This document shows positions 3,001 through 27,490 of a DNA stretch of 39,766 nt, piece by piece. Source of the stretch: Bacteroidetes bacterium QS_3_64_15 (GTDB taxonomy: Bacteria > Bacteroidota > Rhodothermia > Rhodothermales > Salinibacteraceae); assembly GCA_003022565.1 (NCBI GenBank), contig PXTN01000123.1, forward strand, positions 39,157 to 78,922, written 5' to 3'. The translations under genes and the position numbers were made by a program. Numbering within the stretch: position 1 is the stretch's first letter; each line of letters starts with the position of its first letter. A model generated the notes under the pieces. The model worked only from the letters and a program-made list of their open reading frames with translations. It did not search any database and was not told where the DNA came from.

Positions 3001-3657
3001 CTCACCCCCATGAAGCTGTCCATCCAGCACCTGCGCCGGGCCTTCGAGCGGGCCGACGACGTGAGGGAATCCTCCGACTTTGCCGAGGTCTTCGACCGCA
3101 TCACGAGCACGCTTATCGAGCAGGTCGAATCGCTCGTGCGCATCGCCGACGAGTTTTCGACGTTTGCGCGCCTGCCGACTCGCGTGCCCGAGCCGGTCGA
3201 CCTCACCGAGGTCATTCAGGAGGCTGCGTCGCTCATGGAGGAGGAGGCCGCCAATCATGACGCTCTGGACCTTCATCTTCCCGACGAGCCCGTAGTAGTG
3301 GAGGCAGACCGCGAGGAGCTGCGGCGTATCTACATCAATCTTCTCAAGAATGCCCTCCAGGCCATCCCGGAGGATCGCGAGGGGCGCGTGCGGGTCACGG
3401 CGCGGCGGACTGGAGAGGGCGACGGGCGTCCCTCAGCCGTGTACAGCGAGGTGACCGATAACGGGATCGGCATCCCGCTGGACGCGCAGGACAAGGTGTT
3501 CGAGCCCAACTTCTCGACGAAGACGAGCGGCACGGGACTCGGGCTCGCCATTGCTCAGAAGAGCATCGACGAGTTGGGGGGCGAGATTGACTACGAAACG
3601 ACAGAGGGGGAGGGCACGACGTTCTGGATTCGGTTGCCTCAGGCGGAGGAGGGATGA
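1..3657 (+). CDS. Multi-pass sensor histidine kinase, NtrY-like C-terminus (5' end outside window)
   Basis: Membrane sensor kinase, presumed to autophosphorylate on His and pass the phosphate to a response regulator not in this window. The frame is open to base 1, so the true start lies upstream; the first in-window start is GTG at 55, used for numbering here. About eight hydrophobic segments lie between residues ~90 and ~405, followed by a large extracytoplasmic stretch (~410-670), two TMs (~675-700, ~715-740), a second external loop and a last TM (~881-903). HAMP follows (~905-955), then the H-box VAHEIKNPLTP (His977), N-box YINLLKNALQ (Asn1099), G1 DNGIGIP, F-box FEPNFSTK and G2 GTGLGLAI. 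The catalytic part resembles NtrY-type kinases. The eleven-TM double-sensor layout is larger than usual for the family. The downstream neighbour is convergent, so no regulator is paired with it here. Kinase identity is firm; the stimulus is unknown. Confidence 0.93.
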   Translation, partial: TTVVEDGNGRWALAAWTPVKRGGDVLGTVRVVRVVRYRPPVQNRYVGTRSLEDRWRRHTGELVRVRWASTPPRTPHRALRGVDGAILGYGTVDPPSPDRLVERTDSFYTDLLVAWVVGLVGWGLSLVVLWYLRLARREGLRRHRRARKAAAQRLVVVALLAIGARYAMLSLDVPARWAGGGTGLDPLFDPTYLASTIGGGIFRSIGDLLLTGLWAGGLAVALGILARHYRPRADALSELPTALRTYAPKEPHAAHFLGILVGLVAGSLGGIVALASVVRRAVLDSTLDFFSRTGLLPEPLVLGVLCGLFLLMAAGILVGVGSTWIALRRLLHRRPRRWPRGIGLVLGTVLFGGGVTALYLGTDVQSLISLPYTLGILGGLGGGAVYGLVGTRKGDEILTLRGLLGGLFAVTVLLYPLLYAGMDAKRQEHMVDAALSFEEGEDPRVLYSMRQVLRSASETLAPPLQSGPPESARIDSTATQLVRQSLLSSLDTYEVRLSMLGGDGVVRRQYTSDGRVQEKRFDRTVRDVFAALRPVYERSPGAVVEQLSREATARPSEQSRFQYAGLLGVPPGADSVDTWILLRIEPKSLLPGTGFGVSRVLLPNGSFGDLYADLSLAEFQDGTFIRSVGRDFGRTRLRPTEREVLQEQSTLWRREAVRGRQHLTYYRRFASDAGESSTVAGRIPAILAFDHLYYLLRLTVAGLCVGLLVYLLGLYVRYRRGQLPASRVRFRNKVLNAFLVVGIVSMVAVGVVGVRVVTGENERTIERRMHEHLARVEETLALEARPDERLWHVAQRMDVDTLAARVGLDLHLYQDGQLIRTSRPRLLRDGLVNERLSGSVYHDLYDEAYRFVTAEASIGQFRYRVGYQALVDDEGRPQLVVGVPTLAQQEQLLEETSRTLAYLFGALLLLVVVVVLTGMVLANALAQPIAQLRQGLKAVGKGRFTRTLTVDTRDEIGDLVQTFNEMRDQLAESRRKLARQERELAWREMARQVAHEIKNPLTPMKLSIQHLRRAFERADDVRESSDFAEVFDRITSTLIEQVESLVRIADEFSTFARLPTRVPEPVDLTEVIQEAASLMEEEAANHDALDLHLPDEPVVVEADREELRRIYINLLKNALQAIPEDREGRVRVTARRTGEGDGRPSAVYSEVTDNGIGIPLDAQDKVFEPNFSTKTSGTGLGLAIAQKSIDELGGEIDYETTEGEGTTFWIRLPQAEEG

Positions 3658-3707
3658 GTCATGAGGGATGAGTCATGAGGGATGAGTCATGAGGGATGAG
3701 TCACGAG
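3652..3707 (+). repeat. Four tandem copies of a 14-bp unit at the kinase stop codon
   Basis: The unit GGATGAGTCATGAG (two heptads) occurs four times head to tail; the last copy has one change (TCACGAG). The first copy contains the kinase stop codon TGA (3655-3657). It belongs to the gene-bounding periodic arrays described in the findings. Confidence 0.9.
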
Positions 3708-3743
3708 GTTGCGAGTCATGATGAGTTGTGGGGAAGTTCTTGA

Positions 3744-3772
3744 GGTAGAAGCCGTTCCGCCGGGACGGCTCA
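3744..3772. repeat. Palindromic GTAGA...CCGCCGGGACGG element, copy 1
   Basis: An imperfect palindrome with stem GCCGTTCC / GGGACGGC (3751-3758 with 3762-3769), preceded by GTAGAA. It shares the core CCGCCGGGACG and the GTAGA flank with the element at 17287-17315. It lies between convergent genes, where a transcribed hairpin could act as a bidirectional terminator, but there is no T-run. Dispersed palindromic repeat is the safer reading. Confidence 0.6.
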
Positions 3773-3821
3773 GTGCTGCGCATCGGCCTGTGAGTCCGTA
3801 CAACGGGGATGTCCAGGTTGT

Positions 3822-5072
3822 CTACGCTGGCTTGGTCGTTGTGCGCGAGTGAAGGGCGTCGATGCGATCGAGGAGGGGCGGGTGGGAGTAGTCGAGCGCG
3901 ACGGTGAGCGGGTGCGGCGTGAGATTCGAGAGGTTCGCTTCGGCGAGGCGCTTGAGGCCGCTGACGAGCGTCTCGGTCCGGCCCGTGGTGTCGACGGCAA
4001 AGCGGTCGGCCTGAAACTCGTGACGGCGCGACCAGGCATTAAGCGGGATCGAGAGCAGCAACTCGACCGGTGAGTAGAGCAGGCCGAAGAAGAGCAGGCC
4101 GGTGTAGACGGCGGGCTGGTCGACGTAAAAGGCCTGAAACAGCCCGTCGACCTGCAGGAAGACGGAGAGCAGCAGAAAGAGCACCCCGGTCTGCACCACA
4201 CTAATCGCAATGCGCTGCGGGATGTGGTGCAGCTTGTAGTGCCCCATTTCGTGCGCCACCACCGACAGCAGTTCGTCCACCGAGAGCTGCTCGACGAGCG
4301 TATCGAAGAGCACGATCCGCCGGTTGGACCCGAAGCCGGTAAAGAACGCGTTGGCTTTGTTCGACCGGCGCGATCCGTCCATCACGTACACCTCGTTCAC
4401 CGGAAACTCGACCTGGCCAGCGTACGAGAGAATTGCCTCGCGAAGCTCCCCCTCCTCTAGCGGCTCGAAGTCGTTGAAAAGAGGCATCAGGTAGCGGGGC
4501 GCGAAGAACTGCAGGAGCAGCATCACGGCTGACACTACGACCCACGCGTACACCCACCCGTACGGACCGGTGGACTGGAAGAACCACAGGATGGCGGCCA
4601 GCAGCGGCCCCCCGATGGCCACGCCGAGGGCGACGCTCTTGAGCCGATCGAGCACGAATGTTTTCGGGGTCGTCTCGTTGAAGCCGAAGCGCTCCTCGAT
4701 CACAAACGTAGAGTAGGCTGAGAACGGCAGCGACAGCAGCCCGCGCCCCAGCACGAGGAGGCCGATGTAACACAGGCCCCGCACAATCGGCCCGAGCTCC
4801 CACCCGCGCACCAGCGTGTCGAGCCACTCGAAGCCGCCCGCGAACCAGAAGGCCAGGAGCACGGCGAGGGCGAAGGTGGAGGAAAGGAGTCCAAACCGGG
4901 TGCGCGCACGGGTGTACGCCTGGGTCCGCTCGTACTCCTCTTCGTCGAACGTGTCACGAACCTCCTCCGGCAATGCCGGCTGGAGGTGGCGGATGTTGAG
5001 GAGGTCCGAGACGAGGTTCAGTCCGTATTCGACCAAGAGAGCGCCGAGGATGATGATGGCGTATGTGTTCAC
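3822..5072 (-). CDS. M48 family (Ste24/CAAX prenyl protease-like) integral membrane metalloprotease
   Basis: Zinc metalloprotease embedded in the inner membrane, related to Ste24/HtpX; probably cleaves membrane or lipidated proteins. The 416-residue product has about seven hydrophobic segments, the zinc motif VVAHEMGHYKLHH near residue 276 and the third ligand in the HEFQADRF segment near 352. The start chosen is GTG at 5072 (VNTYAIIILGALL), which places the first TM at the N-terminus and gives the usual ~415-residue length; an upstream in-frame start at 5228 would add a non-conserved, non-hydrophobic leader. The gene is convergent with the histidine kinase. Family assignment is firm; substrate is unknown. 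Confidence 0.9.
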   Translation of the reverse strand: MNTYAIIILGALLVEYGLNLVSDLLNIRHLQPALPEEVRDTFDEEEYERTQAYTRARTRFGLLSSTFALAVLLAFWFAGGFEWLDTLVRGWELGPIVRGLCYIGLLVLGRGLLSLPFSAYSTFVIEERFGFNETTPKTFVLDRLKSVALGVAIGGPLLAAILWFFQSTGPYGWVYAWVVVSAVMLLLQFFAPRYLMPLFNDFEPLEEGELREAILSYAGQVEFPVNEVYVMDGSRRSNKANAFFTGFGSNRRIVLFDTLVEQLSVDELLSVVAHEMGHYKLHHIPQRIAISVVQTGVLFLLLSVFLQVDGLFQAFYVDQPAVYTGLLFFGLLYSPVELLLSIPLNAWSRRHEFQADRFAVDTTGRTETLVSGLKRLAEANLSNLTPHPLTVALDYSHPPLLDRIDALHSRTTTKPA

Positions 5073-5224
5073 AGACGCTAGGGGGCAGATTACTGAGAGA
5101 TCAATGGATCGAGGCGTTCTGCGCTCTCCCACACACCAGCGTTTCGAAGGGAGGCCAGGAGATATGGACGAGCGGATGCAGGGGCGGGGCAGGCTGCTTG
5201 CAAGATTTCTTCCACCGCTGTTCG

Positions 5225-5335
5225 TCACACTCGCTCGTGCCCTTCACGAATTGCACTCACAATTTGCTCGCGGGTGATCGAGGTCTCGACGTGGCCCACG
5301 TCGAGCGGGGACTTGTCCTGATCCTGTTCTGACAT
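5225..5335 (-). CDS. Possible 36-residue acidic protein or gene remnant
   Basis: A short frame from ATG at 5335 (MSEQDQDKSPLDVGHVETS) to TGA at 5225. Composition is acidic like the rest of the proteome and the ending ITREQIVSAIREGHERV is predicted amphipathic helix. No family is recognised. It may be a remnant of an antitoxin-like gene next to the toxin-antitoxin module that follows. Weak call: no Shine-Dalgarno and very short. Confidence 0.3.
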   Translation of the reverse strand: MSEQDQDKSPLDVGHVETSITREQIVSAIREGHERV

Positions 5336-5539
5336 GGTGGTGATCGAGACGTTCCTCTGCTCCAGTGCCGGTTCGGAACTGCTATGATTGACGCCGTTCC
5401 AGTTCCGCCTACGAAAGCTAAAGGGAATTGATGTGCAGTTTTGCTCAACTGATTGGAACCGAGAGAAATTTATCTGAACCGCTGTGGCGGCCGGGACGTA
5501 GGTTGACTGTACATCCTTTTCCATGGGACACGATCAGCG

Positions 5540-5779
5540 ATGCAGGTCACTTTTGAGTTCCCGGATGACCTTGACCTCGATGAGCGTGAGGCACGACAAG
5601 TCTTCGTCACTGCCCTCTACGGGCAGGGACAGTTATCTGAAAAGGAGGCGTGCGACGTGCTTAATGCTTCGCGGCGTGAGTTTCAGGATCTGCTCGAAAA
5701 ACTCGGGATTCCTTACATGACGGCGGACGAGTCCTCAGCTCGCGCTGAGGTGCGGGCCGCGGAGCGCTGGCGCTCGTGA
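5540..5779 (+). CDS. UPF0175 family small protein, probable antitoxin
   Basis: A 79-residue protein starting MQVTFEFPDDLDLDEREARQ. It has the usual UPF0175 layout: a short beta-strand N-terminus, then a helical HTH-like segment (LSEKEACDVLNASRREFQDLLEKLGIPY). UPF0175 proteins commonly sit directly upstream of DUF3368 PIN-domain proteins and are taken to be antitoxins. That arrangement is seen here: the stop TGA (5777-5779) overlaps the next start GTG (5776) by four bases, implying translational coupling. An upstream in-frame extension is absent, so the ATG at 5540 is the natural start. Confidence 0.75.
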   Translation: MQVTFEFPDDLDLDEREARQVFVTALYGQGQLSEKEACDVLNASRREFQDLLEKLGIPYMTADESSARAEVRAAERWRS

Positions 5780-5964
5780 AGAAGCGAGAGGTCGTAAGCG
5801 ATACGGGACCGCTCATCTCTCTTGAACGGCTCCCCGACGGACATCAGTGGATGCAGGAGCTCTACACCGGAATTGTCATGCCTCCGAGCGTAACGGATGA
5901 GTTGCTCGCTGACCGTGGACGCATCAATCAGAGGGTTTTCGACACAGTTCGGCCTCAGCTTTGA
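5776..5964 (+). pseudogene. Truncated DUF3368/PIN-domain toxin
   Basis: The product starts with the DUF3368 signature VSDTGPLISLERL, where Asp is the first PIN catalytic acid, and continues to MPPSVTDELLADRG; it stops after 62 residues. Intact family members are about 150-160 residues and carry further conserved acidic residues in the missing part. Only 53 bp separate the stop from the treY stop codon on the other strand, so the 3' half has been lost. It is coupled to the UPF0175 gene by a GTGA overlap. An orphaned antitoxin with an inactivated toxin is the likely state. Confidence 0.7.
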
Positions 5965-6017
5965 GCCTCACGCTGTTGGGACGGGCCTCGTCGGTCATCG
6001 CCTACACACATCGGCTT

Positions 6018-14198: not shown

Positions 14199-14238
14199 GG
14201 GAATGGGGAACGGGAGCGTGGGGGAAAGGGAGCGTGGG
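14199..14238 (-). repeat. 8-bp periodic array upstream of malQ
   Basis: On the plus strand it reads in consecutive octads gggaatgg, ggaacggg, agcgtggg, ggaaaggg, agcgtggg. In malQ sense it is the complementary C-rich array, about 70 bp before the GTG start. Confidence 0.75.
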
Positions 14239-14355
14239 GGGGCATCCATGCTCTCTCGAACGGTCGGCACCGCATTTCCTCGTGGAAACAGTGGGGCATC
14301 GAGGGGGCGTCCTACCGTGAGGCCGCAGCGCATGCGTACGGGAAAAGCGACGGGC

Positions 14356-17315: not shown

Positions 17316-17356
17316 GGAGGATGACACAAGATGAGACTACTCCGGCCCAAGACCGT

Positions 17357-17399
17357 ACGCCCCCACGCCCTCACGCCCAAACGCTCCCGCGCCCAAACG
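17357..17399 (+). repeat. 8-bp periodic array ending at the truA start codon
   Basis: Consecutive octads ACGCCCCC, ACGCCCTC, ACGCCCAA, ACGCTCCC, GCGCCCAA, then ACG; the next base is the A of the truA ATG at 17400. Exact 8-bp spacing of ACG/GCG throughout. It is pyrimidine-rich in truA sense. Confidence 0.8.
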
Positions 17400-18185
17400 A
17401 TGCCTCGCTACCGGATGCTCATCGAATACGACGGAACCGACTTCCACGGGTGGCAGATCCAATCGGACGTGTCGACGGTGCAGGGTGCCCTGGAGGAGGC
17501 CGTGGAGACCATCGTGTCGTCGGCGTGTCGGGTCACGGGGTCGGGCCGCACGGACGCTGGGGTGCACGCCCGCGGGCAGGTGGCCCACGTCGATCTGCCG
17601 AAGGCGCGCGACCCGTATCGACTGCGCGGCTCGCTGAACGGGCTCACGCCCGACGCCATCGCAGTGCGCCAGGTAGAACGGGCGCCGGACGACTTCCACG
17701 CCCGCTACGACGCCCGCCGGCGCCGCTACCACTATCACCTCCACACCCAGCCCTGCGCGCTGGAGCGACAGATGCGCACGCGGATTCGTCCCGCTCCGGA
17801 CTTCGACCGCGTCCGGGCGGCTACGCCCGACCTCCTCGGGCAACACGACTTCAGTTCGTTCTGCCTCACCCAGTCCGACACCGAAAACCGCGTCTGCACG
17901 CTCCACCACGCGCGGTGGGTTGAGGAGGAGCGGCGCGGCTTCTGGCGGTTCGAGATTGTCGGGACGCGGTTTCTGCACGGCATGGTCCGGGCCCTCGTGG
18001 GCACCCTTCTCGAAATCGGGCATGGCAAGCGGGCGGCCGACAGTATTCCGGACGTTCTCGCCGCTCAAGACCGGCGCGTGGCCGGACCGTCGCTGCCGGC
18101 CGAGGGGCTCGTGCTGGAGCACGTTCGGTATGAGCAAGAGGTGCTCAGCCGGCCCGCCGTCTCGTCTCTGCGCTCCGACCTGTAA
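17400..18185 (+). CDS. truA: tRNA pseudouridine(38-40) synthase
   Basis: Isomerises uridine to pseudouridine at positions 38-40 of the tRNA anticodon stem-loop. The 261-residue protein starts [20 protein letters not shown], the typical TruA N-terminus; the frame's earlier start at 17331 would translate the upstream octad repeat and was rejected. The catalytic Asp is in [14 protein letters not shown]. Other family motifs: [27 protein letters not shown] and [17 protein letters not shown]. Length is normal. It starts the rightward series that includes the small membrane protein and arginine deiminase. Confidence 0.95.
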
Positions 18186-18263: not shown

Positions 18264-18449
18264 ATGGATCTCGATCTCCAAACGGTCATCCGCTGGCTCA
18301 TCATCGGCGTGGTCGCGCTTCTTGGCCTCAGCCTCCTGGGGGTGCTGGTCAACGTTGCGACTGCGTTGCTCCAGTTCGTCCTCAAGGCGGGCGCGATCGT
18401 GCTCGTGGTGCTCCTCGTGATTCGCGCGCTGGAAGGCGTGCGATCGTGA
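18264..18449 (+). CDS. Small two-TM membrane protein
   Basis: A 61-residue protein, MDLDLQTVIRWLIIGVVALL and onward, with two hydrophobic segments (~9-30 and ~33-55) and a short charged C-terminus (IRALEGVRS). No family is recognised. Its stop codon TGA overlaps a GTG that opens the longer version of the arginine deiminase frame (GTGA, 18446-18449), so the two could be coupled. GC-rich codon use like its neighbours supports a real gene. Function unknown. Confidence 0.65.
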   Translation: MDLDLQTVIRWLIIGVVALLGLSLLGVLVNVATALLQFVLKAGAIVLVVLLVIRALEGVRS

Positions 18450-18562
18450 CGGCGGCCCCCGCGGACGATCCGGCCGATGTCCGCGGTGGCTTTTCTGCCG
18501 GTCACTTCCGACCTTGGGTGCACCCTGGTTGCTTTGCTCACGAACCCGGTGCCCCACTCACT

Positions 18563-19858
18563 GTGGACACAATTGAAGCTCCATCCCCTCCGTCCGTCGA
18601 CCCGTCCCCCGCCGCCTACAGCATTCCCGCCGAGGCCCATCTGCTCGAGCAGGTGATCGTGCACACGCCGGGCCCAGAGATGGAACTCGTGTCGCCCGAA
18701 AACCGGGAGGACCTGCTCTTCGATGACATTCTCTTCGTGGGGCACGCGCGGCAGGAGCACCTGCTCATGTGCTCGGTGTTCGAAAAAATCGTGGGCCGTC
18801 CCGACACGGTGCTTCAGATTAAGGATCTCCTGCTCGACACCTTCGAGGCGGAGGAGGCCGCGCGGCATTCCTTCGTGGAGAAGCTGTGCCGGAGCCTACC
18901 GGAGCAAAACCTGGGGGCTGTCGAAGACGAGCTTAAGCGCTTCTCGCCGGAGGACCTGCAGCAGTTTGCCCTCACCGGCCAGTCGGAGCTCCCCATCCGG
19001 GCCCAGCCGGTCCCTAATCTCATGTTTACGCGGGACCTCGCCGCCGTGGTGCACGACCACATCATCCTGAGCCACGCCGCGACGGTGGCTCGCACCCGGG
19101 AGAGCATCATCATCAACGTCATCCTCCATCATCATCCCCGGTTTGCGCCGCACAGCGACACGGTCATCGAGCTGCCCCCCGGCGTCACCTTCGAAGGGGG
19201 CGATCTGCTCGTGGCGAGCCCCGACACGGTCCTCATCGGCCATTCGGAGCGGACCTCCCTCGGGGCCGTCATGGCCATTGTGCACGAGCTGTTCGAGCGC
19301 ACGCCGGTGGAGCATGTCCTCGCCGTGGACCTGCCCAAGCGGCGGTCCACCATGCACCTCGACACGGTGTTTACCTTCGCCTCGCCGACCGAGGTCATCG
19401 TTTTTCCGCCCCTGCTCGAAACCCACGGCTTCGGGTACGCGGTGCATTTTACGGCCGCGGACGGGACGGGCCGCTTCGTCACCGACATGCGCCGCAACCT
19501 ACGCGACGTGCTCGACGAGCTGCTCGACCGCGACCTCACGTATATCCCCTGCGGGGGCACCGAGCGACTGCACCAGGAGCGTGAGCAGTGGACGGATGGG
19601 GCCAACGTGTTCGCGGCTGCACCCGGCGCCATCCTGGGCTACGAGCGCAACAGCCGCACCTTTGAGCGACTGCGCGAGCACGGATACCGGATCGTCTCCG
19701 CCGAGAGCTTCCTGTCCTACTTTGAGTCCGGCCAGTTCCATCCCGGGCAGGAGAAGGTTGCGATTCAGTTGGGCGGCACGGAGCTGTCTCGGGGGCGGGG
19801 CGGTCCGCGCTGCATGACCCTCCCCGTCTCCCGACACGCTTCCCCCGCGGGGGAATGA
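18563..19858 (+). CDS. arcA: Arginine deiminase
   Basis: Hydrolyses arginine to citrulline and ammonia, first step of the ADI pathway. Motifs: HTPGPEMELVSPEN near the N-terminus, PNLMFTRDLAAVV with the guanidinium-binding Asp, EGGD, RSTMHLDTVFTF with the catalytic His, and the C-terminal GRGGPRCMT with the catalytic Cys. GTG at 18563 gives 431 residues, close to the family size. The frame stays open back to GTG at 18446, which overlaps the upstream small gene; the added 39 residues (ADDPADVRGGFSAGH etc.) look non-conserved, so the downstream start is preferred but not certain. No ornithine carbamoyltransferase or carbamate kinase lies nearby, so fermentative arginine use cannot be inferred from this window. 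Confidence 0.9.
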   Translation: MDTIEAPSPPSVDPSPAAYSIPAEAHLLEQVIVHTPGPEMELVSPENREDLLFDDILFVGHARQEHLLMCSVFEKIVGRPDTVLQIKDLLLDTFEAEEAARHSFVEKLCRSLPEQNLGAVEDELKRFSPEDLQQFALTGQSELPIRAQPVPNLMFTRDLAAVVHDHIILSHAATVARTRESIIINVILHHHPRFAPHSDTVIELPPGVTFEGGDLLVASPDTVLIGHSERTSLGAVMAIVHELFERTPVEHVLAVDLPKRRSTMHLDTVFTFASPTEVIVFPPLLETHGFGYAVHFTAADGTGRFVTDMRRNLRDVLDELLDRDLTYIPCGGTERLHQEREQWTDGANVFAAAPGAILGYERNSRTFERLREHGYRIVSAESFLSYFESGQFHPGQEKVAIQLGGTELSRGRGGPRCMTLPVSRHASPAGE

Positions 19859-19894
19859 GGAGTGGGGAGTTTGGAGTGGGGAGTTCGGAACTGG
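19853..19894 (+). repeat. 7/14-bp periodic array at the arcA stop codon
   Basis: Heptads gaatgag, gagtggg, gagtttg, gagtggg, gagttcg, gaactgg in perfect register, with a 14-bp higher-order repeat. The first heptad contains the arcA stop TGA. Purine-rich in arcA sense. Confidence 0.85.
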
Positions 19895-19914
19895 AAAGGA
19901 TGAGTTGAAGAGCC

Positions 19915-20059
19915 TTCCCCAAGTCCCCGCGTCCCAACGTCCCCGCGTCTCCCAATCGCTCCCTCGCCCGTTCTTCCTTTCGCCTACGCCCCTGCACTTC
20001 CGCGCTCTCTTTCTCCCACGCCCCCACGCTCTCGTTCCCCCATCCTCCCATTCTCCAAG
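19915..20059 (+). repeat. Two 8-bp periodic arrays upstream of ypdA
   Basis: 19923-19970 reads in octads gtccccgc, gtcccaac, gtccccgc, gtctccca, atcgctcc, ctcgcccg. 20015-20054 reads cccacgcc, cccacgct, ctcgttcc, cccatcct, cccattct. Both are C-rich on the ypdA coding strand. No gene lies in this 277-bp gap. Confidence 0.8.
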
Positions 20060-20135
20060 TAAGGCCTCGAAACTGCCGACCGCGTCTGCAGGTTCAGAAA
20101 ACGCGTGTGTATCCCGAACCCACTGATTGGTGTTC

Positions 20136-21122
20136 ATGCACGACGTTATCGTCATCGGAGCCGGGCCTGTGGGCCTCGCCTGTAGCATTGAGGCCAAGCG
20201 TCGAGGGCTCGATTCGCTCATCATCGAGAAGGGAGCCCTCTGCAACTCCTTTATCGGGTATCCTACACAGATGGAGTTCTTCTCCACGCCCGAGTTGTTG
20301 GAAATCGGCGGCCACCCGTTTCCCACGCGCGACTACAAGCCGCGCCGCGAGGAGGCGCTCGACTACTACCGCGGGGTGGCCACGGCGGAAGACCTCGACC
20401 TACGCCTCTACGAGCCGGTGACGGACCTGCGGGGCAGCGACGGGCACTTCACGGTCGTGACTGATGAGGCCACCCATGAAACGCGAAAAGTGGTGGTGGC
20501 CACTGGCTTCTACGACGTGCCTAACCGCATGAACGTGCCGGGTGAGGACCTCGACAAGGTGCGGCACTACTTCAAGGAGCCCTACCCCTACGCCCTGACG
20601 GACGTGGCCGTGGTAGGCGGCGCCAATTCGGCGGTGAAGGCGGCCCTGAACTGCTACCGCCACGAGGCGACCGTGACGATGGTGGTGCGCGAGCCGACCC
20701 TCGACGACGGGGTGAAGTACTGGCTCCGGCCCGACGCGGAGAACCGCATCGCGGAGGGGTCCATCGACGCCTACTTCAACACCACCGTCTCGGCCATCGA
20801 GCCGGAGACGCTCCACCTCGACACCCCCGACGGCCCCGAGCGCATCGACAACGACTTCGTGCTCGCCATGACGGGCTACCGGCCCAATTACGACTTCCTG
20901 GAGCAGCTCGGCATTGCGATCCGCGACGACGAGGCCCGCACGCCAGTACACGACGAGGAGGGGGAAACCTTCGAAACGAACCGCGACGGCCTGTACCTTG
21001 CCGGTACCATCTGCGGCGGCTGCAATACGAGCCGCTGGTTCATCGAAAACGGTCGCTTCCACGCCGAGAGGATCATGGACCACATTGCCGTGACCCTCGA
21101 GACCGAGCCCGCTGTGGCCTGA
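20136..21122 (+). CDS. ypdA: YpdA family FAD/NAD(P)-dependent reductase (putative bacillithiol disulfide reductase)
   Basis: A 328-residue flavoprotein of the thioredoxin-reductase-like fold. It has the FAD motif DVIVIGAGPVGLACSIEAK at the N-terminus, the YpdA-typical SFIGYPTQMEFFSTPELLEI segment, ATGFYDVPN, the NAD(P) motif VAVVGGANSAVKAAL near residue 155, and the C-terminal FAD contact DGLYLAGTICGG. YpdA members reduce bacillithiol disulfide in Firmicutes; whether this organism uses bacillithiol cannot be seen here. There is no CxxC thioredoxin-reductase active site. ATG at 20136 was preferred to TTG at 20127 because it puts the FAD motif directly at the N-terminus. Confidence 0.88.
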   Translation: MHDVIVIGAGPVGLACSIEAKRRGLDSLIIEKGALCNSFIGYPTQMEFFSTPELLEIGGHPFPTRDYKPRREEALDYYRGVATAEDLDLRLYEPVTDLRGSDGHFTVVTDEATHETRKVVVATGFYDVPNRMNVPGEDLDKVRHYFKEPYPYALTDVAVVGGANSAVKAALNCYRHEATVTMVVREPTLDDGVKYWLRPDAENRIAEGSIDAYFNTTVSAIEPETLHLDTPDGPERIDNDFVLAMTGYRPNYDFLEQLGIAIRDDEARTPVHDEEGETFETNRDGLYLAGTICGGCNTSRWFIENGRFHAERIMDHIAVTLETEPAVA

Positions 21123-21170
21123 TGCGTGACGCCTGATGCGTGACGCCTGATGCGTGACGCGTGATGAGTC
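21119..21170 (+). repeat. 14-bp tandem repeat at the ypdA stop codon
   Basis: Unit CTGATGCGTGACGC is repeated three times exactly (21119-21160) with a degenerate fourth. The TGA of the first unit (21120-21122) is the ypdA stop codon. Confidence 0.9.
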
Positions 21171-21190
21171 AGCGAAGGGCATGGGGGCCT

Positions 21191-21258
21191 CACGTTTCAC
21201 TCTTCATGCATCACTCGCCCTTGCCCCCGCGCTCCCGCGCCCTCATTCCCCACGCTCA
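21191..21258 (-). repeat. Heptad then octad array ending in the serA stop codon
   Basis: Plus-strand heptads cacgttt, cactctt, catgcat, cactcgc, then octads ccttgccc, ccgcgctc, ccgcgccc, tcattccc, cacgctca. The last three bases (21256-21258) are the serA stop read on the minus strand. In serA sense the array is purine-rich. With 21119-21170 it makes an imperfect inverted pair between convergent genes. Confidence 0.8.
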
Positions 21259-22596
21259 GCCACTTTCGTTCACCTTGAACTGACGGAGGGTTCGGATGGC
21301 TCGGGGGTCGTCGGAGAGCGACACGGCCGCCTCAATGATGTTGTGGAGTTGCCGATCGCTCAGGGGTTGATCGATCGCGTTCACGTCATAGGCAATGCCG
21401 AGGTCGGGAAAGTCGCGGTGGCTGGATTGCAGGTTGCTGGCCCCGGCCTCGTAGACGCTGTCATCGATCGCCTTCTTCGTCCCGCGCACGTCGCTGTGCA
21501 CCACCGCCAGAATCCAGTGGGGCGGCTCGGCATTGACCCCGATCGTGTGCCCCTGCCCGAACACCGTGTCGCGCACAGTGCCCTGTTCGTTGAGGAGCCG
21601 CGTGGAGGTGGCCATGCGGGACGCAATGCGGGGCTGCGCCTCCTGCGTGGCGGCGCCGATGTGGGGCGTGGTGAAGACGTTGTCCCGCTCGGCGTAGGGG
21701 TTGGTCCAGTCCTCGTCGGCGCTGCCCGGCTCCTCGGGAAACACGTCGACAGCCGCGGCCCGCACGTGGCCCTCATCGAGGGCCCGCTTCAGATCCCCAG
21801 GGTCGTGTAGGAAGCCGCGGGCAGCGTTGACGAAGGCGCGGGGGCTGTTGTCCGGTCGGTCCGCCCCGAGCTGGCGGAAGTGATCGTAGTTCAGCAGTCC
21901 CTCATTAGACTGTCCCTGCGGGTCCTCCGCGGAGACGTGCACCGTCACGAAGTCGCCTGTCCGGAACGCCTCCGCTAGGCTGGAGCAGGAGGTCCACCCC
22001 AGGGTGGTGCCCACCTCCTGCGCCACGTCCGACTTGTCGTAGAAGCAGATGTCCATCCCGAGATCGTCGGCCACCCGCGCCAGCTGCTTACCAATGTTGC
22101 CCAGCCCAATGATGGAGAGCGTCTTGTCCATCAGTTCGTAGCGACGCGTGCTGTCCTTCGTCCACCGGTGCCGCCGCCCCGATTCGTTGGCCGTGTAGAG
22201 CCGGCGGGCCAGCACAATCATTTCGCCCATCACCATTTCGACCACCGAGCGGCCGTTGCTCACCGGGTCGTTGAGCACCAGCACGCCCTCCTCCGCGCAC
22301 GCCGGCTTGTCCACTGTGTCGTCGCCGATGCAGCACAGCATGACGGCGGCCAGGTTGTCCGACGCCTCCACGATACGCTGGTCGACGACGAACTTGCTCC
22401 GCTTGTAGATGAGATCGTGCTGTCCCTCACGCAGGCGCTCCACCATCGCCTCCTGGTCGTAGCACTCCGGTTTGGGGACCCGCTCCGGCTCGATGCCCTG
22501 ATCGCGCAGATAGTCGTCGAGGCTGGGGTCGGGCTCCTCGAGGATCAGCGCCTTCTCGAAGTGGTCGTTCAGGAACCGGGTGCGCGGGTGCTCCAT
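21256..22596 (-). CDS. serA: D-3-phosphoglycerate dehydrogenase-like 2-hydroxyacid dehydrogenase with C-terminal ACT-like domain
   Basis: NAD-dependent oxidation of 3-phosphoglycerate, first step of serine synthesis, is the likely role. The 446-residue product has the substrate-domain start (KALILEEPDPSLDDYL), the SNGRSVVEMVMGEMIVLARR helix, the NAD motif SIIGLGNIGKQLARVADDLG, FVNAARGFL with the catalytic Arg region, VDVFPEEP, and TPHIGAATQEAQPRIA with the active-site His. The last ~90 residues (HWILAVVHSDVRGTKKAIDD...) resemble an ACT domain, as in E. coli-type SerA with serine feedback. The variable loop RQLGADRPDNSPRAFVNAARG is a little longer than usual. Other hydroxyacid substrates cannot be excluded. 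No serC or serB is adjacent. Confidence 0.85.
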   Translation of the reverse strand: MEHPRTRFLNDHFEKALILEEPDPSLDDYLRDQGIEPERVPKPECYDQEAMVERLREGQHDLIYKRSKFVVDQRIVEASDNLAAVMLCCIGDDTVDKPACAEEGVLVLNDPVSNGRSVVEMVMGEMIVLARRLYTANESGRRHRWTKDSTRRYELMDKTLSIIGLGNIGKQLARVADDLGMDICFYDKSDVAQEVGTTLGWTSCSSLAEAFRTGDFVTVHVSAEDPQGQSNEGLLNYDHFRQLGADRPDNSPRAFVNAARGFLHDPGDLKRALDEGHVRAAAVDVFPEEPGSADEDWTNPYAERDNVFTTPHIGAATQEAQPRIASRMATSTRLLNEQGTVRDTVFGQGHTIGVNAEPPHWILAVVHSDVRGTKKAIDDSVYEAGASNLQSSHRDFPDLGIAYDVNAIDQPLSDRQLHNIIEAAVSLSDDPRAIRTLRQFKVNESG

Positions 22597-22652
22597 GACG
22601 GGTCGGTAGGGGATGACGAGGAAAACCGGGGGCGGCTCGAACGATCAAATAA

Positions 22653-22870: not shown

Positions 22871-23737
22871 TTACAGTACGTCGCCGATCGTCTCTCCGAT
22901 GAGGGCTGGATTCTTCACCACGGTGGCGCCCGCCTCTTCGAGCGCCTGGAACTTGGCCTCGGCTGTGCCGGAACCGCCCGATACGATGGCCCCGGCGTGC
23001 CCCATGCGACGCCCCGGCGGGGCCGTGCGGCCCGCGATGAAGCCGAAGACCGGCGTATCCATGTAGTCGTGGATGTAGCGAGCGGCCTCCTGCTCGTCGG
23101 AGCCGCCAATCTCGCCAATGAGGACGACGCCCTCCGTGTGCGGATCGTCCTCGAACAGTTCGAGCGCGTCGACGAACCGCGTGCCAATCACCGGATCGCC
23201 GCCGATGCCCACGGCCGTGCTTTGCCCGAACCCAGCCCGCGTAATCTGGTCGACGGCCTCGTAGGTGAGTGTGCCCGACCGCGAGATGAGCCCGATGGAG
23301 CCCGGCTCGAAGATCATGGCGGGCATGATGCCGACCTTCGTCTCCCCCGGCGTGATGGCCCCGGGGCAATTCGGCCCGATGAGGTGGGCGCCCTGCTTCT
23401 TCACGTAGTGATAGGTCGGTTTCATGTCGGCCACCGGGATGCCCTCCGTAATGCAGGCGATGACCTCGATCCCCGCGTCGGCAGCCTCCTGGATCGCGTC
23501 GGCGGCGAAGGGAGGGGGCACGAAGATGATAGAGGTGTTGGCGTCCTCGTGCTCCACCGCCTCGGCGACGGTATCATAGACGGGCCGGTCCAGGTGAGTC
23601 TGCCCGCCCTTGCCGGGCGTGACGCCGGCCACCACGTTCGTGCCGTAGTTAAGCATCTGCTCGGCGTGGAAGGTGCCCTCCGAGCCCGTGAAGCCCTGCA
23701 CCACTACACGTGTATCGTCATCGACGAGAATACTCAT
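22871..23737 (-). CDS. sucD: Succinyl-CoA synthetase (ADP-forming) alpha subunit
   Basis: TCA-cycle enzyme subunit that carries the phosphohistidine and binds CoA; it works with SucC, which is not in this window. The 288-residue protein starts [20 protein letters not shown] (ATG at 23737) and has GYN-equivalent [14 protein letters not shown], the CoA-binding Rossmann fold, [38 protein letters not shown], and [17 protein letters not shown] with the phosphorylated His near residue 246. The frame continues 88 codons upstream, but that stretch translates the periodic repeats and has no conservation. Length is exactly typical. Confidence 0.96.
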
Positions 23738-23793
23738 GCGTTTGGAGAATTTGGAGTGTGGAGTTCGGAGTGTGGAGTTCGGAATGGAGAGGG
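23738..23793 (-). repeat. 7/14-bp array abutting the sucD start codon
   Basis: Plus-strand heptads tggagtg, tggagtt, cggagtg, tggagtt, cggaatg, gagaggg (23752-23793), continuing less regularly to the ATG at 23737. In sucD sense it is C-rich (units like CGAACTC and CACACTC). Confidence 0.85.
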
Positions 23794-23964: not shown

Positions 23965-24040
23965 GCGTGATGCGTGAAACGTGACTCGTGACACTTCGCA
24001 TCGCGCATCCTCACGCATCACGTCTCACGCATCATTCCCC
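23965..24040. repeat. Opposed heptad arrays between sucD and gatA
   Basis: 23965-23992 reads gcgtgat, gcgtgaa, acgtgac, tcgtgac; 24011-24034 reads the inverse type, cacgcat, cacgtct, cacgcat. Together they form an imperfect inverted repeat. The gatA stop codon (24025-24027 on the minus strand) lies inside the second array. Confidence 0.8.
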
Positions 24041-25578
24041 ATAATCGCCTGCCCGATGCGCAGGAGGAGAGCTTCGTCGAAGTGGGGGCCGAGGAGCTGG
24101 AGGCCGACGGGCAGGCCCGGCGTGTCGGGGTGCTCACCGATGGGGACCGTGAGGCCGGGCAGCCCGGCGAGATTGGCCGTCACGGTGTAAATGTCGTTGA
24201 GGTACATTTCGAGCGGGTCGTCGGTCTTCTCGCCGAGCTGGAAGGGAGGCGTCGGCGTGGTGGGCGTGACGAGAGCGTCGACGTCCTCAAAGGCGCGCTC
24301 GAAGTCGTGGCGGATGAGGGTGCGGACGCGCTGAGCCTTCTGATAGTATTTGTCGTAGTAGCCGGCGGAGAGGGCGTAGGTGCCGAGCATAATGCGGCGC
24401 TTCACCTCTTCGCCGAAGCCCTCAGTGCGGGTGCGGGTGTAAAGGGCGTCGAGGGTGCTCTGCTCATCGTCGAGCTGCGCTTCGAGCTTGGCCACGCGCT
24501 CCTCGTCGCCCTGCGTGCGGGCGGAGGCGAGTTCGTTCTCCAAGTCCTCACGCTGCTTGCGGAGGGCCTGCGTCGTCTCCTGCAGGTCGGCCCGGTGGCC
24601 GTAGCGGATGCCGTCGTAACGGGCCAGGTTGCTGGAGGCCTCGGCCGTGGCGATGAGGTAGTAGGTGGCGACGCCGTATTCGGTGTGGGGCAGCGAGACC
24701 TCCTCGACGGTCGCGCCGGCGTCCTCGAGCTGCTGGACCTGCTCGTGCACCATGTGGCGGATGTCGTCGTCGAGCCCCTCGGCGAAATACTCTTCGGGGA
24801 GGCCGAGGCGGAGGCCCTCCACCCCGTCGCCGAGAGCGTCGGTGTAGTCGGGCACGGCGACCGGGGCGCTGGTCGAATCGCGCTCATCTTCCCCCGCGAT
24901 GACGTTCAGAAGCGCGGCTACGTCTTCCATGCTGCGCCCCAGCGGCCCGATGACGTCGAGCGACGAGGCGAACGCCACGAGGCCGGAGCGGCTCACGCGG
25001 CCGTAGGTGGGCTTGAGGCCCACGGTGCCGCAGAAGGCGGCAGGCTGGCGCACCGAGCCGCCGGTGTCGCTCCCCAAGGCCGCGTGGCACATGCCGGCGG
25101 CCACCGCCGCGGCCGACCCGCCCGAGGAGCCGCCCGGCACGTAGTCGGTGTGGTGCGGATTCCGCACGGGGCCGAAGTGAGAGGTTTCGTTCGACGAGCC
25201 CATCGCGAACTCGTCGCAGTTCGTCTTGCCGATGAAGATGGCCCCGGCGTCGCGCAGGCGATCGATGACCGTTGCGTCGTAGAGCGACGAGAAGTCCTCC
25301 AGCATCTTCGACCCGCACGTCACCGGGTAGCCGCGGATGCAGATATTGTCCTTGACCGCCAGGACGAGGCCCGCCAGGGGGCGCGGATTGCCCCGCTCGC
25401 GCTGGCTGTCGAGGTAGCGGGCGTGGTTGAGCGCCCCGTCCCGGTCGACCGTCGTGAACGCATTGATTTCATCGTCGCGCTCGTCGATGCGAGTCAAAAA
25501 AGAAGAGACCAGGGCTTCACAGCTGGTCTCCCCGGCGTCGAGGGCACGACGGGCATCGGCAAATGTCGGGTACTCCAT
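24025..25578 (-). CDS. gatA: Asp/Glu-tRNA amidotransferase subunit A with a coiled-coil insertion
   Basis: Glutaminase/amidase subunit of GatCAB, which converts Glu-tRNA(Gln) and Asp-tRNA(Asn) to the amidated forms. The amidase signature is complete: LVLAVKDNI with the catalytic Lys, GGSSGGSAAAVAAG, and GSDTGGSVRQPAAFCG with the cis-Ser and nucleophile Ser. C-terminal motifs EGFGEEVKRRIMLGTYALSA and NLAGLPGLTVPIG are typical. The 517-residue length is about 30-35 above the family norm. Roughly 45 extra residues (around 24454-24590, rich in E, Q, K and R: ALRKQREDLENELASARTQ, then LEAQLDDEQST) lie between YGHRAD and LDALYTRTRTEGFG and are predicted coiled coil. ATG at 25578 is chosen; the 13 codons upstream are not conserved. 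GatB and GatC are not adjacent. Confidence 0.95.
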   Translation of the reverse strand: MEYPTFADARRALDAGETSCEALVSSFLTRIDERDDEINAFTTVDRDGALNHARYLDSQRERGNPRPLAGLVLAVKDNICIRGYPVTCGSKMLEDFSSLYDATVIDRLRDAGAIFIGKTNCDEFAMGSSNETSHFGPVRNPHHTDYVPGGSSGGSAAAVAAGMCHAALGSDTGGSVRQPAAFCGTVGLKPTYGRVSRSGLVAFASSLDVIGPLGRSMEDVAALLNVIAGEDERDSTSAPVAVPDYTDALGDGVEGLRLGLPEEYFAEGLDDDIRHMVHEQVQQLEDAGATVEEVSLPHTEYGVATYYLIATAEASSNLARYDGIRYGHRADLQETTQALRKQREDLENELASARTQGDEERVAKLEAQLDDEQSTLDALYTRTRTEGFGEEVKRRIMLGTYALSAGYYDKYYQKAQRVRTLIRHDFERAFEDVDALVTPTTPTPPFQLGEKTDDPLEMYLNDIYTVTANLAGLPGLTVPIGEHPDTPGLPVGLQLLGPHFDEALLLRIGQAIMGNDA

Positions 25579-25680
25579 GCGTGGAGATGGGTCCTGCAGA
25601 AATGGGGTACAGCGCAATCCAACGGCGGTCTCAAGACGGGCCGCACTGCCCTTTCAATCAACGGGGCGGGGACGCCTGTG

Positions 25681-26046
25681 CTAGGAGGCCTCTTTCGCAT
25701 CCTGCGTGTTCGATTCGGCGACCTCCGACGACTGCGACTCCGACGTCTCGCCCGCGTTGTCGGTCGGAGTTGACTCCGAGGAGGTCTGTCGGGGCTGTCC
25801 TTGCTGCTGGTGCTGTCGCTGGTCCTGGCGGGGCTGAGGGGTGCCCTGCTGAGGCGTCTGCGGCTGGTTGATCTGACGCTCCTGGCTCTCAGCCTCGATC
25901 TCGCGGGAGATCTCATTCGTCGCGTCCTTGAACTCACGGATGCCCTTGCCAATGCCGCGCGCGATCTGGGGAATCCGCTTGGCCCCAAACACGAGGAGCA
26001 AGACGAGGAAGATGATGATAAGTTCGGGAAAACCAATGCCGCCCAT
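25681..26046 (-). CDS. tatA: Sec-independent translocase subunit TatA/TatE type
   Basis: Pore-forming subunit of the twin-arginine export system, which moves folded proteins and matters in halophiles. The 121-residue product has the standard layout: MGGIGFPELIIIFLVLLLVF (TM, residues 1-20), the FGAKRIPQIARGIG hinge, an amphipathic helix (KGIREFKDATNEISREIEAE), then an acidic tail rich in Q, S, T and E (~65-121). The tail is longer and more Q-rich than in most TatA. TatA rather than TatB is preferred because of FGAKRIP; TatC is not in this window. It may share a transcript with gatA, 102 bp downstream. Confidence 0.9.
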   Translation of the reverse strand: MGGIGFPELIIIFLVLLLVFGAKRIPQIARGIGKGIREFKDATNEISREIEAESQERQINQPQTPQQGTPQPRQDQRQHQQQGQPRQTSSESTPTDNAGETSESQSSEVAESNTQDAKEAS

Positions 26047-26355
26047 GTGTTTAGCGGAGGGTTTGAGAATGGACTGATGGGACTGCCTCGTCTCCCGACC
26101 AACGGTCTTGCCGCAGGCGAACTCGTTGAAGTCTGCCGGACAAGATCCGTAGACAGGACGCCACGCAAACGAGACGGGGAATTGGGGGTTCCCAGCCCCC
26201 GCCTCTGCGGTGAAGGAGGCAGCGCATTCGAAACAGCCCCCCGGGCGGTCGTGTTACGGACGAAAATCTCTCGGGTCTCGCACGTCGTAGGTCATAATGA
26301 CCTTCCGGGTGCGGTCGCCGTCTGCTTTGTGTCACACGTCCGTTTCCTCCTGCGC
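26047..26355. other. Divergent intergenic region tatA / add
   Basis: A 309-bp gap between two divergent genes, so it should hold both promoters. Frames crossing it are extensions of the adenosine deaminase frame and antisense shadows. I see no clear -33/-7 pair, repeat array or RNA gene. Confidence 0.5.
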
Positions 26356-27441
26356 ATGTCTCTGGAGCCGTCCACCGACGCCGTCGCGCTCACCCGAGAG
26401 GACATTCGTGCGTGGCCGAAGGCGGAGCTGCACTGTCACCTCGACGGCTCGATGCGTCTGGAGACGATGCTGGACGTGGCGAAGACGGAAGGCAAGATGG
26501 ACGTGCTCCCAGCCGATAGCGTCGACGGCTTGCGGAAGAAACTCCAGGGCGTGGAAGAGTCCGGCACACTGGAGGCCTACCTCACCTGGTTCGGGTACAC
26601 GATTCCCCTTCTGCAGTCGCGGGACGTCCTCCGGCGGGCCACCTACGAACTTGCGGCCGACAACGCCGCTGAAAATGTTCGGTATCTGGAGGTGCGCTAC
26701 TCGCCCATTCTGCACGTGGAGGAAGGTCTGTCTCTGGAGGCGGTAAACGATGCGGTTCTCGAAGGGCTCGAGCAGGCGGAGCAGGATCTGGACATCACGA
26801 CGTCGCTCATCATCTGCGGACTTCGGGATCGCTTCGAAAGCGCGTCGATGCGGCTGGCCGAACTGGCGATCGAGTACCAGCATGAGGGAGTCGTGGCCTT
26901 CGATCTGGCCGGTGGGGAGGCGGGCAATCCTCCGAAGGGGCACCTCCACGCGTTCTACCGCGCCCGCAACAACCTGCTGAACCTTACCATCCACGCCGGC
27001 GAGGCATGGGGCCCCGATTCCATCCGTCAGGCGCTCTTTTACTGCGGAGCTCACCGCATTGGGCACGGCATCTCGCTTCGGAAAGACCCGGAGCTCATGC
27101 AGTATTTTGCCAACCACCGCGTTCCGCTCGAAATCTGCCCCACGAGCAATGTAGACACGCAGGCGGTGCCGAGCCTGGAGGCCCACCCGATTGAGACCTA
27201 CGTCCGGTCCAACATTCCGGTGACGATAAACACCGACAACCGGCTCTTCAGCCGCACCTCCATGACGAAGGAGCTCTGGCGGGTGTATCAGCACTGCAAT
27301 CTGGAGGCCCGGCACCTGCGTGAGATCGCGCTGAACGGGTTCCGGTACGCCTTTCTCCCGTATCAACAAAAGCAGTCGCTGCTCCGCTCCGTCATGGAGG
27401 GCTTCCCGATGCAGGCGACGCCGGAAACCCCGCTGTGGTGA
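26356..27441 (+). CDS. add: Adenosine/adenine deaminase family protein
   Basis: Zinc-dependent purine (deoxy)nucleoside or base deaminase of the amidohydrolase fold. Ligands are complete: AELHCHLDGS with the HxH pair (residues ~26-28), LTIHAGEAWG with His and the catalytic Glu, HRIGHGISL with the catalytic His, and VTINTDNRLFS with the metal-binding Asp. ICGLRDRF and GVVAFDLAGGEAG are also typical. 361 residues. The start MSLEPSTDAVALTRED (ATG at 26356) is chosen because the frame's 185 further upstream codons overlap tatA on the other strand and lack conservation. Substrate (adenosine, adenine or a modified base) is not settled by the sequence. An octad array starts just after its stop. Confidence 0.92.
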   Translation: MSLEPSTDAVALTREDIRAWPKAELHCHLDGSMRLETMLDVAKTEGKMDVLPADSVDGLRKKLQGVEESGTLEAYLTWFGYTIPLLQSRDVLRRATYELAADNAAENVRYLEVRYSPILHVEEGLSLEAVNDAVLEGLEQAEQDLDITTSLIICGLRDRFESASMRLAELAIEYQHEGVVAFDLAGGEAGNPPKGHLHAFYRARNNLLNLTIHAGEAWGPDSIRQALFYCGAHRIGHGISLRKDPELMQYFANHRVPLEICPTSNVDTQAVPSLEAHPIETYVRSNIPVTINTDNRLFSRTSMTKELWRVYQHCNLEARHLREIALNGFRYAFLPYQQKQSLLRSVMEGFPMQATPETPLW

Positions 27442-27446
27442 TGCGA

Positions 27447-27490
27447 GCGTGAGAGCGTGGGGGCGTGGGAGAAAGAGGGCGTGGGTGCAT
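27447..27490 (+). repeat. 8-bp periodic array after the add stop codon
   Basis: GCGT or GCAT recurs at 27447, 27455, 27463, 27479 and 27487, an exact 8-bp register. Purine-rich in add sense. It begins 5 bp after the stop. Confidence 0.8.

Follow-up and report, generated by a model that had tools for sequence, protein, structure and literature searches.

Tandem arrays of short units, most of them seven or fourteen nucleotides long, were noticed beside several genes in a 39,766-base stretch of the genome of Bacteroidetes bacterium QS_3_64_15 (contig PXTN01000123.1), which is called the window below. The whole genome, G000 in what follows, comprises 131 contigs and 2.62 Mb. In this work we analysed these arrays in the window, in further parts of the same genome and in related genomes. 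We conclude that they belong to the heptad class of short tandem repeats in intergenic DNA, known as STRR (short tandemly repeated repetitive) or GGGNATC-type repeats, and that they often stand in facing pairs of one unit family with the purine-rich (R) arm first and the pyrimidine-rich (Y) arm second. The genes and arrays of the window are listed in Table 1. Gene names were confirmed by Pfam and NCBIfam profiles, and the six array sites named by the initial annotation, together with 27442-27490, were scored for periodicity by counting how many of 1000 dinucleotide shuffles reached the observed score.

Table 1. Genes and repeat arrays of the window
Feature	Position	Strand	Remarks
Sensor histidine kinase gene	55..3657	+	HATPase_c, HAMP, HisKA; best NCBIfam model AtoS-like, below model cutoff
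14-bp unit x 4.3 (GAGGGATGAGTCAT), heptad sub-period, solitary	3649..3708	+	Tandem Repeats Finder (TRF), 97% matches
Pyrimidine-rich 16-bp array (strand read as for the nearest start)	14205..14240	-	74 nt from that start
Octad/16-mer pyrimidine array in a divergent gap	17346..17408	+	6 nt before the called start at 17415
Arginine deiminase (arcA)	18446..19858	+	Pfam ADI well above cutoff; NCBIfam arcA below cutoff
R arm, GGAGTNN heptads, after the arcA stop	19859..19889	+	
Y arm, octad/16-mer	19916..19949	+	Faces the arcA R arm 19859..19889
YpdA-family putative bacillithiol disulfide reductase (ypdA)	20127..21122	+	TIGR04018, above cutoff
R arm, 14-bp unit TGATGCGTGACGCC x 3.6	21117..21166	+	CGTGANN-related
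Degenerate Y arm	21191..21218	+	Faces 21117-21166
Phosphoglycerate-dehydrogenase-like gene	21256..22596	-	Convergent to ypdA; profile score below model cutoff
Succinate--CoA ligase alpha subunit (sucD)	22871..23737	-	TIGR01019, above cutoff
Start-side array, AACTCCACACTCCG-type 14-mers in the sucD sense, solitary	23738..23793	-	Reaches the ATG
Y arm in the gatA sense, CGTGANN family	23966..23991	-	gatA 3' pair
R arm in the gatA sense	24011..24029	-	Overlaps the gatA stop; 19-nt loop
Asp/Glu-tRNA amidotransferase subunit A (gatA)	24025..25617	-	TIGR00132, above cutoff
Adenosine deaminase family gene	25801..27441	+	Pfam/NCBIfam profiles
Octad array GAGCGTGG	27442..27469	+	Directly after the adenosine deaminase stop

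The initial annotation of this DNA had described six arrays in exact heptad register. Five of them stand out clearly from shuffled sequence: no shuffle reached the score of the sites 3652-3707 (98% identity at lag 14, 69% at lag 7), 19853-19894, 21119-21170 and 23738-23793, and a single one did so at 23965-24034. The sixth, 21191-21218, is weak by itself (48 of 1000 shuffles) and is better taken for a degenerate arm that partners 21119-21170; it pairs with the ypdA R arm with a score of 10.5, against a 99% null level of 10.2. The assertion that the period is the same at all sites does not hold, since the four octad or 16-mer arrays of Table 1 deviate from it and such periods are about as common as heptads and 14-mers in the sampled part of the genome. 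After the adenosine deaminase gene, for example, identity over 27442-27490 is 63% at lag 8 and 21% at lag 7 (0 of 1000 shuffles). An in-frame ATG at 17331 would place the array upstream of 17415 inside the open reading frame (ORF).

Three stop codons had been assigned to the first repeat unit of an array. This is so for the kinase (TGA at 3655-3657) and for ypdA, while the arcA stop lies, by eye, in a degenerate unit immediately ahead of the clean array. The gatA stop does fall inside an array, as had been proposed. In G003, G004, G005 and G007 a stop codon comes directly after ATG-GAG in the gatA orthologue and the G000 gene runs three codons longer, so that its TGA seems to be array-derived. 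Predicted folding differs between the sites, with z-scores of -3.2 for the arcA 3' region (19856-19960), -2.87 for that of ypdA (21120-21220) and a moderate -1.63 for that of gatA (24027-23955). The sucD leader is predicted to be unstructured (minimum free energy 0.0, z +1.69), and several members of the genus carry, by eye, a pyrimidine-rich leader at this position. A search of the window with Rfam at gathering score gave no match, and a known RNA family was therefore rejected there.

The sampled part of the own genome consisted of the window and 18 further stretches, 352,122 bases in all of the 2.62 Mb. All nine other contigs had been picked as matches to window DNA, which biases array density upward; counts of the CGTGANN pattern, made on whole genomes, are unaffected. 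Stretches from related genomes were sampled as well, G025 serving as order-level outgroup. Genes on sampled stretches were called with a home-made codon-score script (starts uncertain; coding cover 76% for the own genome). The first lag analysis used gaps of 30-600 nt and the later ones gaps of 30-800 nt, with 20 shuffles per sequence in the lag analyses and 30 in the folding of stop regions, for which the 130 nt after stops were folded as RNA and expressed as z against shuffles. Stretches centred on pattern hits feed the results on CGTGANN substitution, on the NN dinucleotides, on the 22 copy differences, on covariation and on the 10 orthologous pairs described below. Orthologues of the window sites were compared by eye and proved to differ sharply from one another.

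In the sampled own genome 73 intergenic arrays of period 7, 8, 14 or 16 were found in 209 gaps, against 2.2 in shuffles. The periods are represented about evenly, by 19 (period 7), 16 (8), 20 (14) and 18 (16) arrays. The excess of lags 7 and 14 over shuffled sequence expected by the initial annotation is thus present in intergenic DNA. In 197 gaps compared with dinucleotide shuffles it reached z 9.6 and 10.1 on the stop side and 9.6 and 6.0 in convergent gaps; on the start side it was only 3.2 and 3.9, with lags 3, 12 and 21 equally large. Coding DNA gave the codon period without any excess at lags 7 and 14. Among the relatives, arrays numbered 14 in G003 (186 gaps), 27 in G011 (173), 9 in G010 (124) and 25 in G025 (126), with 0.5-1.8 expected from shuffles. 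Array-bearing gaps per kb fall from convergent over tandem to divergent gene arrangements in G000 (1.31, 0.96 and 0.30), G011 (1.19, 0.62 and 0.13) and G003 (0.40, 0.31 and 0).

Several unit families coexist in this genome, which in our reading include the heptads CGTGANN and GGAGTNN and the octads GGGCGTNN, GGAGGTNN and GGGGGAAT-like. The dominant core CGTGA holds no GGG and does not conform to the unit GGGNATC with its G-quadruplex potential, while some minor octads (GGGGGAAT-like) do contain GGG. Nor was TAACTGA among the recurring units, the start-side arrays being the pyrimidine strand. The own genome gave 94 matches to a pattern of three CGTGANN units, overlapping matches counted, and every one of the 13 genus genomes gave one or more (G004 a single one). 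In the same 13 genomes together the reversed core matched once and the same core at octad spacing not at all. The pattern also occurs in G018 (49 matches), G023 (39), G024 (12), G030 (4), G017 (2) and G027 (1), and is absent from 12 of the 18 relatives outside the genus. In a phylum sample it was present in 21 of 247 genomes, genus included; because the reversed-core control matched in about 31 of them (hand count), we rejected the idea that CGTGA is a specially favoured core phylum-wide, other heptads being equally common in that sample. The control was abundant in G120 (58+34), G185 (31+25) and G241 (68+57), where other heptad families are plentiful.

Many of the arrays are arranged in facing pairs. 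In 2.10 Mb from eight stretch groups, CGTGANN clusters lie equally on both strands (46 and 48), and neighbours at most 150 nt apart are in the order RY in 25 cases and YR in none, with three RR and three YY; 40 permuted control words gave on average 0.175 RY and 0.075 YR. When arrays of any unit family were counted in four genomes, 19 RY stood against 3 YR, 5 YY and 2 RR. Among the matches listed for four consecutive CGTGANN units on named contigs of many phyla (119 loci), 30 neighbours were RY, one YR, nine YY and five RR. Placement of these arrays relative to the longest ORF, again among the matches listed, had put 70 'inside' an antisense ORF and 19 at an edge, and for the 75 placed arrays gave 27 sense and 4 antisense at stops and 27 sense and 17 antisense at starts; it was discarded because the stop-free array strand breeds false ORFs.

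This geometry bears on the strand polarity of the arrays. The initial annotation had stated that arrays are purine-rich after stops and pyrimidine-rich before starts, in the sense of the gene. In the own genome (59 arrays) we found 26 G-rich and 6 C-rich arrays within 60 nt of stops, and 1 and 11 within 60 nt of starts (Fisher p = 1.6e-5), so that array strand and gene orientation are linked as had been predicted. Farther off, the respective numbers were 1 and 6 with a stop nearest and 0 and 8 with a start nearest. Of these arrays, 23 have no stop codon on either strand and behave alike, with 11 G-rich and 3 C-rich within 60 nt of stops and 0 and 6 at starts. A facing RY pair inside any gap places purines after stops and pyrimidines before starts whatever the gene arrangement, so the link is in part a matter of geometry and transcription need not be involved; a transcription-coupled strand bias as the sole cause of polarity is unneeded. 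In each of the seven sampled genomes pyrimidines make up 56-68% of start regions, and start-side polarity is therefore partly background. Among the 39 arrays that have a stop as their nearest gene end, 13 start no more than 3 nt away from it. CGTGANN offers a TGA every 7 nt in all three frames, so that any frame entering it in sense must stop, and the overlap of arrays with stop codons is in part an ORF artefact.

Array-bearing stop regions also differ from the others in their folding potential. An inverted repeat above the 99% shuffle level was found in 20 of 33 array-bearing stop regions and in 15 of 145 array-free ones, some of the latter 15 belonging to two other dispersed palindrome families. 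In the own genome mean z was -2.09 with arrays (33 regions) and -0.56 without (136). The same direction was seen in G011 (-1.52 for 13 against -0.29 for 112), G003 (-1.36 for 10 against -0.32 for 124), G010 (-1.25 for 4 against -0.82 for 101) and G025 (-1.23 for 14 against -0.68 for 65). Across families, arms paired better with their own partner than with other arms (8.88 against 6.69; 0 of 5000 permutations), although only 13 of 108 arms were individually in the top 5% for their own partner. Such scores make the functional signal in untranslated regions, one of the two explanations offered by the initial annotation, possible for the 3' side, its role being putative.

Canonical intrinsic terminators were rejected as an identity for these structures, because no T-tract follows the arms: four or more T within 15 nt were present in only 5 of 50 flanks of CGTGANN pairs. 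As a separate observation, array-free convergent gaps have a mean z of -1.06 in G000, -0.83 in G003 and -0.46 in G011, and fold better in G010 (-1.83), G015 (-2.17) and G025 (-1.90), as if ordinary terminator hairpins, judged by these predictions, were scarcer in the first three.

The 78 CGTGANN runs of at least three units (shorter ones uncounted), considered with regard to the preference for four units in heptad-class repeats, comprise 27 of three units, 32 of four, 8 of five and 11 longer. The NN of neighbouring units was identical in 80 of 346 comparisons, below the 112.5 +- 6.5 of shuffles, and that of next-but-one units in 102 of 190, above the 65.5 +- 6.8 expected. The CGTGANN arrays of this genus thus behave as 14-mers made of two unlike heptads. 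Such alternation was not seen in arrays selected at lag 7 or 8, nor was it clear in the loci from many phyla, in which, among the matches listed, perfect heptads made up 45 of 150 runs; as a general rule it was rejected, and it holds for CGTGANN in this genus. These data touch on a neutral origin, in which polymerase or repair makes tandem duplications of about 13-17 bp, template switching at inverted copies gives the facing arms, and arrays without function accumulate between genes, not being tolerated inside them. We regard this as quite possible, if short of probable. Copying of single units predicts like neighbours, contrary to the NN counts, which copying of 14-mers could explain; under template switching the best matches should be between cognate CGTGANN arms, which was not observed; and the presence of RY without YR in unrelated phyla, among the matches listed, is not obvious from slippage. 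In favour of a neutral origin stand the patchy presence of arrays among orthologues, their near absence from the G004 and G015 samples, and several features of turnover between close species.

G003 and G011, two such species, diverge by 3.9% in coding and 8.3% in intergenic DNA. Their intergenic regions show 22 tandem-copy differences of at least 6 nt, 16 of them 13-17 nt and eight exactly 16 nt long; with pattern-hit stretches left out, 14 of 19 are 13-17 nt and eight are 16 nt, the comparison being one of size and not of gain versus loss. In 19 of the 22 the shorter allele holds no prior array, as the neutral account would have it. Copy differences of 14 or 16 bp were found at several orthologous gaps, and together with the size peak they bear out the slippage-like turnover that had been suspected. 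The peak at 13-17 bp (mode 16) also occurs in unique sequence among the intergenic indels of this species pair, and is possibly a lineage-specific mutational signature. A perfect 15-bp tandem repeat of the same size class, AAAACGCACAACTGT x 2.2, lies at 29979-30011 of the window.

Substitutions within CGTGANN units affected 76 of 502 core positions (15.1%) and 41 of 202 NN positions (20.3%), against 8.3% in other intergenic DNA, in a count that takes units from both species and in which repeats can misalign. Core and NN differ little, and strong recent purifying selection on the CGTGA core is unsupported; the raised rate of 15-20% again suits neutrality. The small difference between core and NN also speaks against arrays of binding sites, in which an RNA- or DNA-binding protein of the cold-shock, S1 or CsrA-like type would recognise a constant core at intervals of 7-8 nt. 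A constant core with free NN would agree with this idea, and the available part of a paper on TAACTGA repeats (PMC4679880) cites a cold-shock protein with one protein per heptamer. In our reading the several unrelated cores within one genome do not fit it, and we consider binding sites very improbable as an explanation.

At 10 orthologous CGTGANN pairs, with flanks 77-100% identical, divergence was mostly within the same family. Two gaps showed apparent family swaps, with a GCGTATTN-type unit in G003; at one of them a CGTGANN pair in G011 corresponds to a GCGTATTN pair in G003 between flanks 94% and 88% identical, and one swapped G003 piece, perhaps because it is cut short, folds no better than shuffles. 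At the ypdA gap, by eye, the heptad RY pair is shared with G005 and G006, octad-like GT/CA pairs are present in G008, G010 and the family member G018, and no array pair was seen in G001, G002, G003, G004, G011 and G012. In the gatA 3' gap facing structures of differing units recur, by eye, in G000, G005, G011 and G007. The swaps, a partial loss at one orthologous gap and the dispersal of one core in facing pairs could recall small mobile palindromes inserted beside genes, such as repetitive extragenic palindromic sequences (REP), bacterial interspersed mosaic elements (BIME) or miniature inverted-repeat transposable elements (MITE). Yet neither a fixed sequence nor a fixed length of such an element came to light, the 5-nt core alone recurring, and several orthologous gaps differ by 14- or 16-bp copies, so we hold insertion of such elements to be very improbable.

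Taken together, the best supported description is that of intergenic arrays fed by duplication, which settle where they are tolerated, mainly downstream of genes, and are often facing and foldable. Whether they also serve the cell is almost evenly balanced in our estimate: a modest, putative role at the mRNA 3' end, our leading reading, may be laid over the mutational source. In such a scheme, a duplication-prone process would supply 14- or 16-bp copies, which gaps downstream of genes would tolerate; some arrays would be retained where facing arms form a stem-loop near the mRNA 3' end that gives stability or blocks read-through, its shape counting more than its sequence. The solitary pyrimidine array before sucD would then be a separate case, an unstructured leader in a clade with pyrimidine-rich start regions.

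A number of observations weigh against a retained 3' stem-loop. Of the 33 stop regions with arrays in the own genome only 48% fold at z < -2, and neither the kinase array (z -0.18) nor that after the adenosine deaminase gene (z +0.33) gives a folding signal; the missing T-tracts belong here too. In CGTGANN pairs an arm fits its own partner no more closely than it fits the arms of other pairs (permutation p 0.97), which also leaves copying of one arm from the facing arm unsupported. Among the orthologues of the 10 CGTGANN pairs only five have z < -2, with a sixth at -1.65, and one has lost its facing arm. Covariation, sought at these 10 loci as proof of RNA pairing, was not found: changes on both sides were more frequent than expected from independence (45 against 23.6), and the 19 that still pair are at about chance level, without excess compensation, in columns that are unreliable at five of the ten loci (33-65% identity). 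This absence also counts in favour of a neutral origin. The kinase and arcA arrays have, by eye, no clear counterpart in five and six genus orthologues, respectively, and 200-kb samples held no array in G004 (93 gaps) and one in G015 (118 gaps). Polarity, too, is weaker or absent outside the own genome. It is weak in G011 (9 against 5 at stops, 1 against 3 at starts; 2 against 4 and 0 against 4 for arrays without stop codons) and at stops it is reversed in the outgroup G025 (0 against 7; starts 2 against 5). G003 (stops 3 against 2, starts 1 against 2) and G010 (2 against 0 and 1 against 1) hold too few arrays.

A wider form of the stem-loop reading would extend it to bacteria in general: duplications of about 14-16 bp would make facing arrays, selection would keep the shape irrespective of sequence, and families would be swapped while the RY hairpin stays. 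Under this extension, which we consider doubtful, a constant core with free NN would arise because copy changes slide the register by 7 or 8 nt and only core-core pairs survive. Should shape indeed be kept, the evolution of mRNA 3' ends in this group would proceed through the swapping of repeat cassettes. The free NN and the 14-bp alternation bear on the choice between simple slippage and maintenance of shape, and the 13-17-bp peak offers a measurable source.

Other repeats were seen alongside the arrays. A MITE-like element of about 200 bp with terminal inverted repeats AGAAGCTGTTTGGTGGA / TCCGCCAAACAGCTTCT lies at about 13146-13350 of L075 (G011), and the orthologous gap of G003, in L059, lacks it; inverted ends of a similar kind occur in L012 (10918-11141), L017 (6290-6602) and L020 (904-1543 and 12204-12523). 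Post-gene palindromes of the GTAGAGACGTCCCGCCGGGACGT and GTAAAGCCGTCCCG types were found in L016 (16340-16542) and L018 (18300-18457), and a similar string follows the kinase array at about 3745-3775 of the window. An array like those of clustered regularly interspaced short palindromic repeats (CRISPR) occupies 32903-34944 of the window, with a 28-nt repeat GGTCTATCCCCGCGTGTGCGGGGCCACC at a spacing of about 61 nt in several blocks.

Arrays of this general kind have been known for some time. The STRR heptamers of filamentous cyanobacteria, reportedly described by Mazel in 1990, have unit sequences other than those found here. REP and BIME are extragenic stem-loops near gene 3' ends, present in many copies, whose palindrome sequence is conserved; in the arrays described here no more than a 5-nt core recurs and the NN are free. 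In the available part of one account (PMC2670836), the 7-bp STRRs are said to be able to form hairpins and perhaps to affect transcript stability or translational coupling. They are tandem repeats of 7-bp units as are many of our arrays, and that part describes no genome-wide facing-pair rule. The TAACTGA heptads of Beggiatoaceae, Cyanobacteria and some Bacteroidetes (MacGregor 2015, PMC4679880; available part) are likewise direct repeats, patchy across phyla, with copy-number indels between close strains. They differ in being one unit, mostly in sense just upstream of starts in the main genome, in having indels of 7 nt instead of 14 or 16 nt, and in not forming facing pairs after stops; protein binding of the type considered above was proposed for them.

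The closest relatives contradict the statement of the initial annotation that no named element behaves in this way. Rehm et al. (2015, PMC4692102), in the sections available, describe intergenic heptads of GGGAATC type in Xanthomonas and GGGGA(C/T)T in Nostoc, whose G-rich strand is in sense at most 50 bp after stops, including stop overlap, and in antisense at most 50 bp before starts. These heptads are scarce between divergent genes, vary in length between close species and form 70 and 75 facing inverted pairs in two Xanthomonas, with few in Nostoc. Heptad unit, intergenic site, strand polarity, stop overlap and facing pairs are thus common to both. In contrast to what those sections report, one genome here holds several families with 7- and 8-nt periods, the main unit CGTGANN lacks a GGG tract and its free NN alternate with a 14-bp period, neighbouring CGTGANN arrays as a rule stand in the order RY, apparent family switches occur at two orthologous gaps, and presence among orthologues looks patchier. 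According to work cited in both papers (PMC4692102, PMC4679880), heptads are unusually frequent among the long simple repeats of many bacteria; as far as their available parts go, function is left open in the former and merely suggested in the latter. Among the open-access papers listed, titles and abstract beginnings gave no such arrays in this clade, no multi-family genomes and no family swaps. The facing-pair rule, seen for one core across phyla, offers a single geometric account of the polarity reported for another heptad in Xanthomonas. The kind of repeat is therefore already known, and what is new here is the coexistence of several unit families in one genome, the 14-bp alternation of the free dinucleotides and, at two orthologous gaps, an apparent swap of family.

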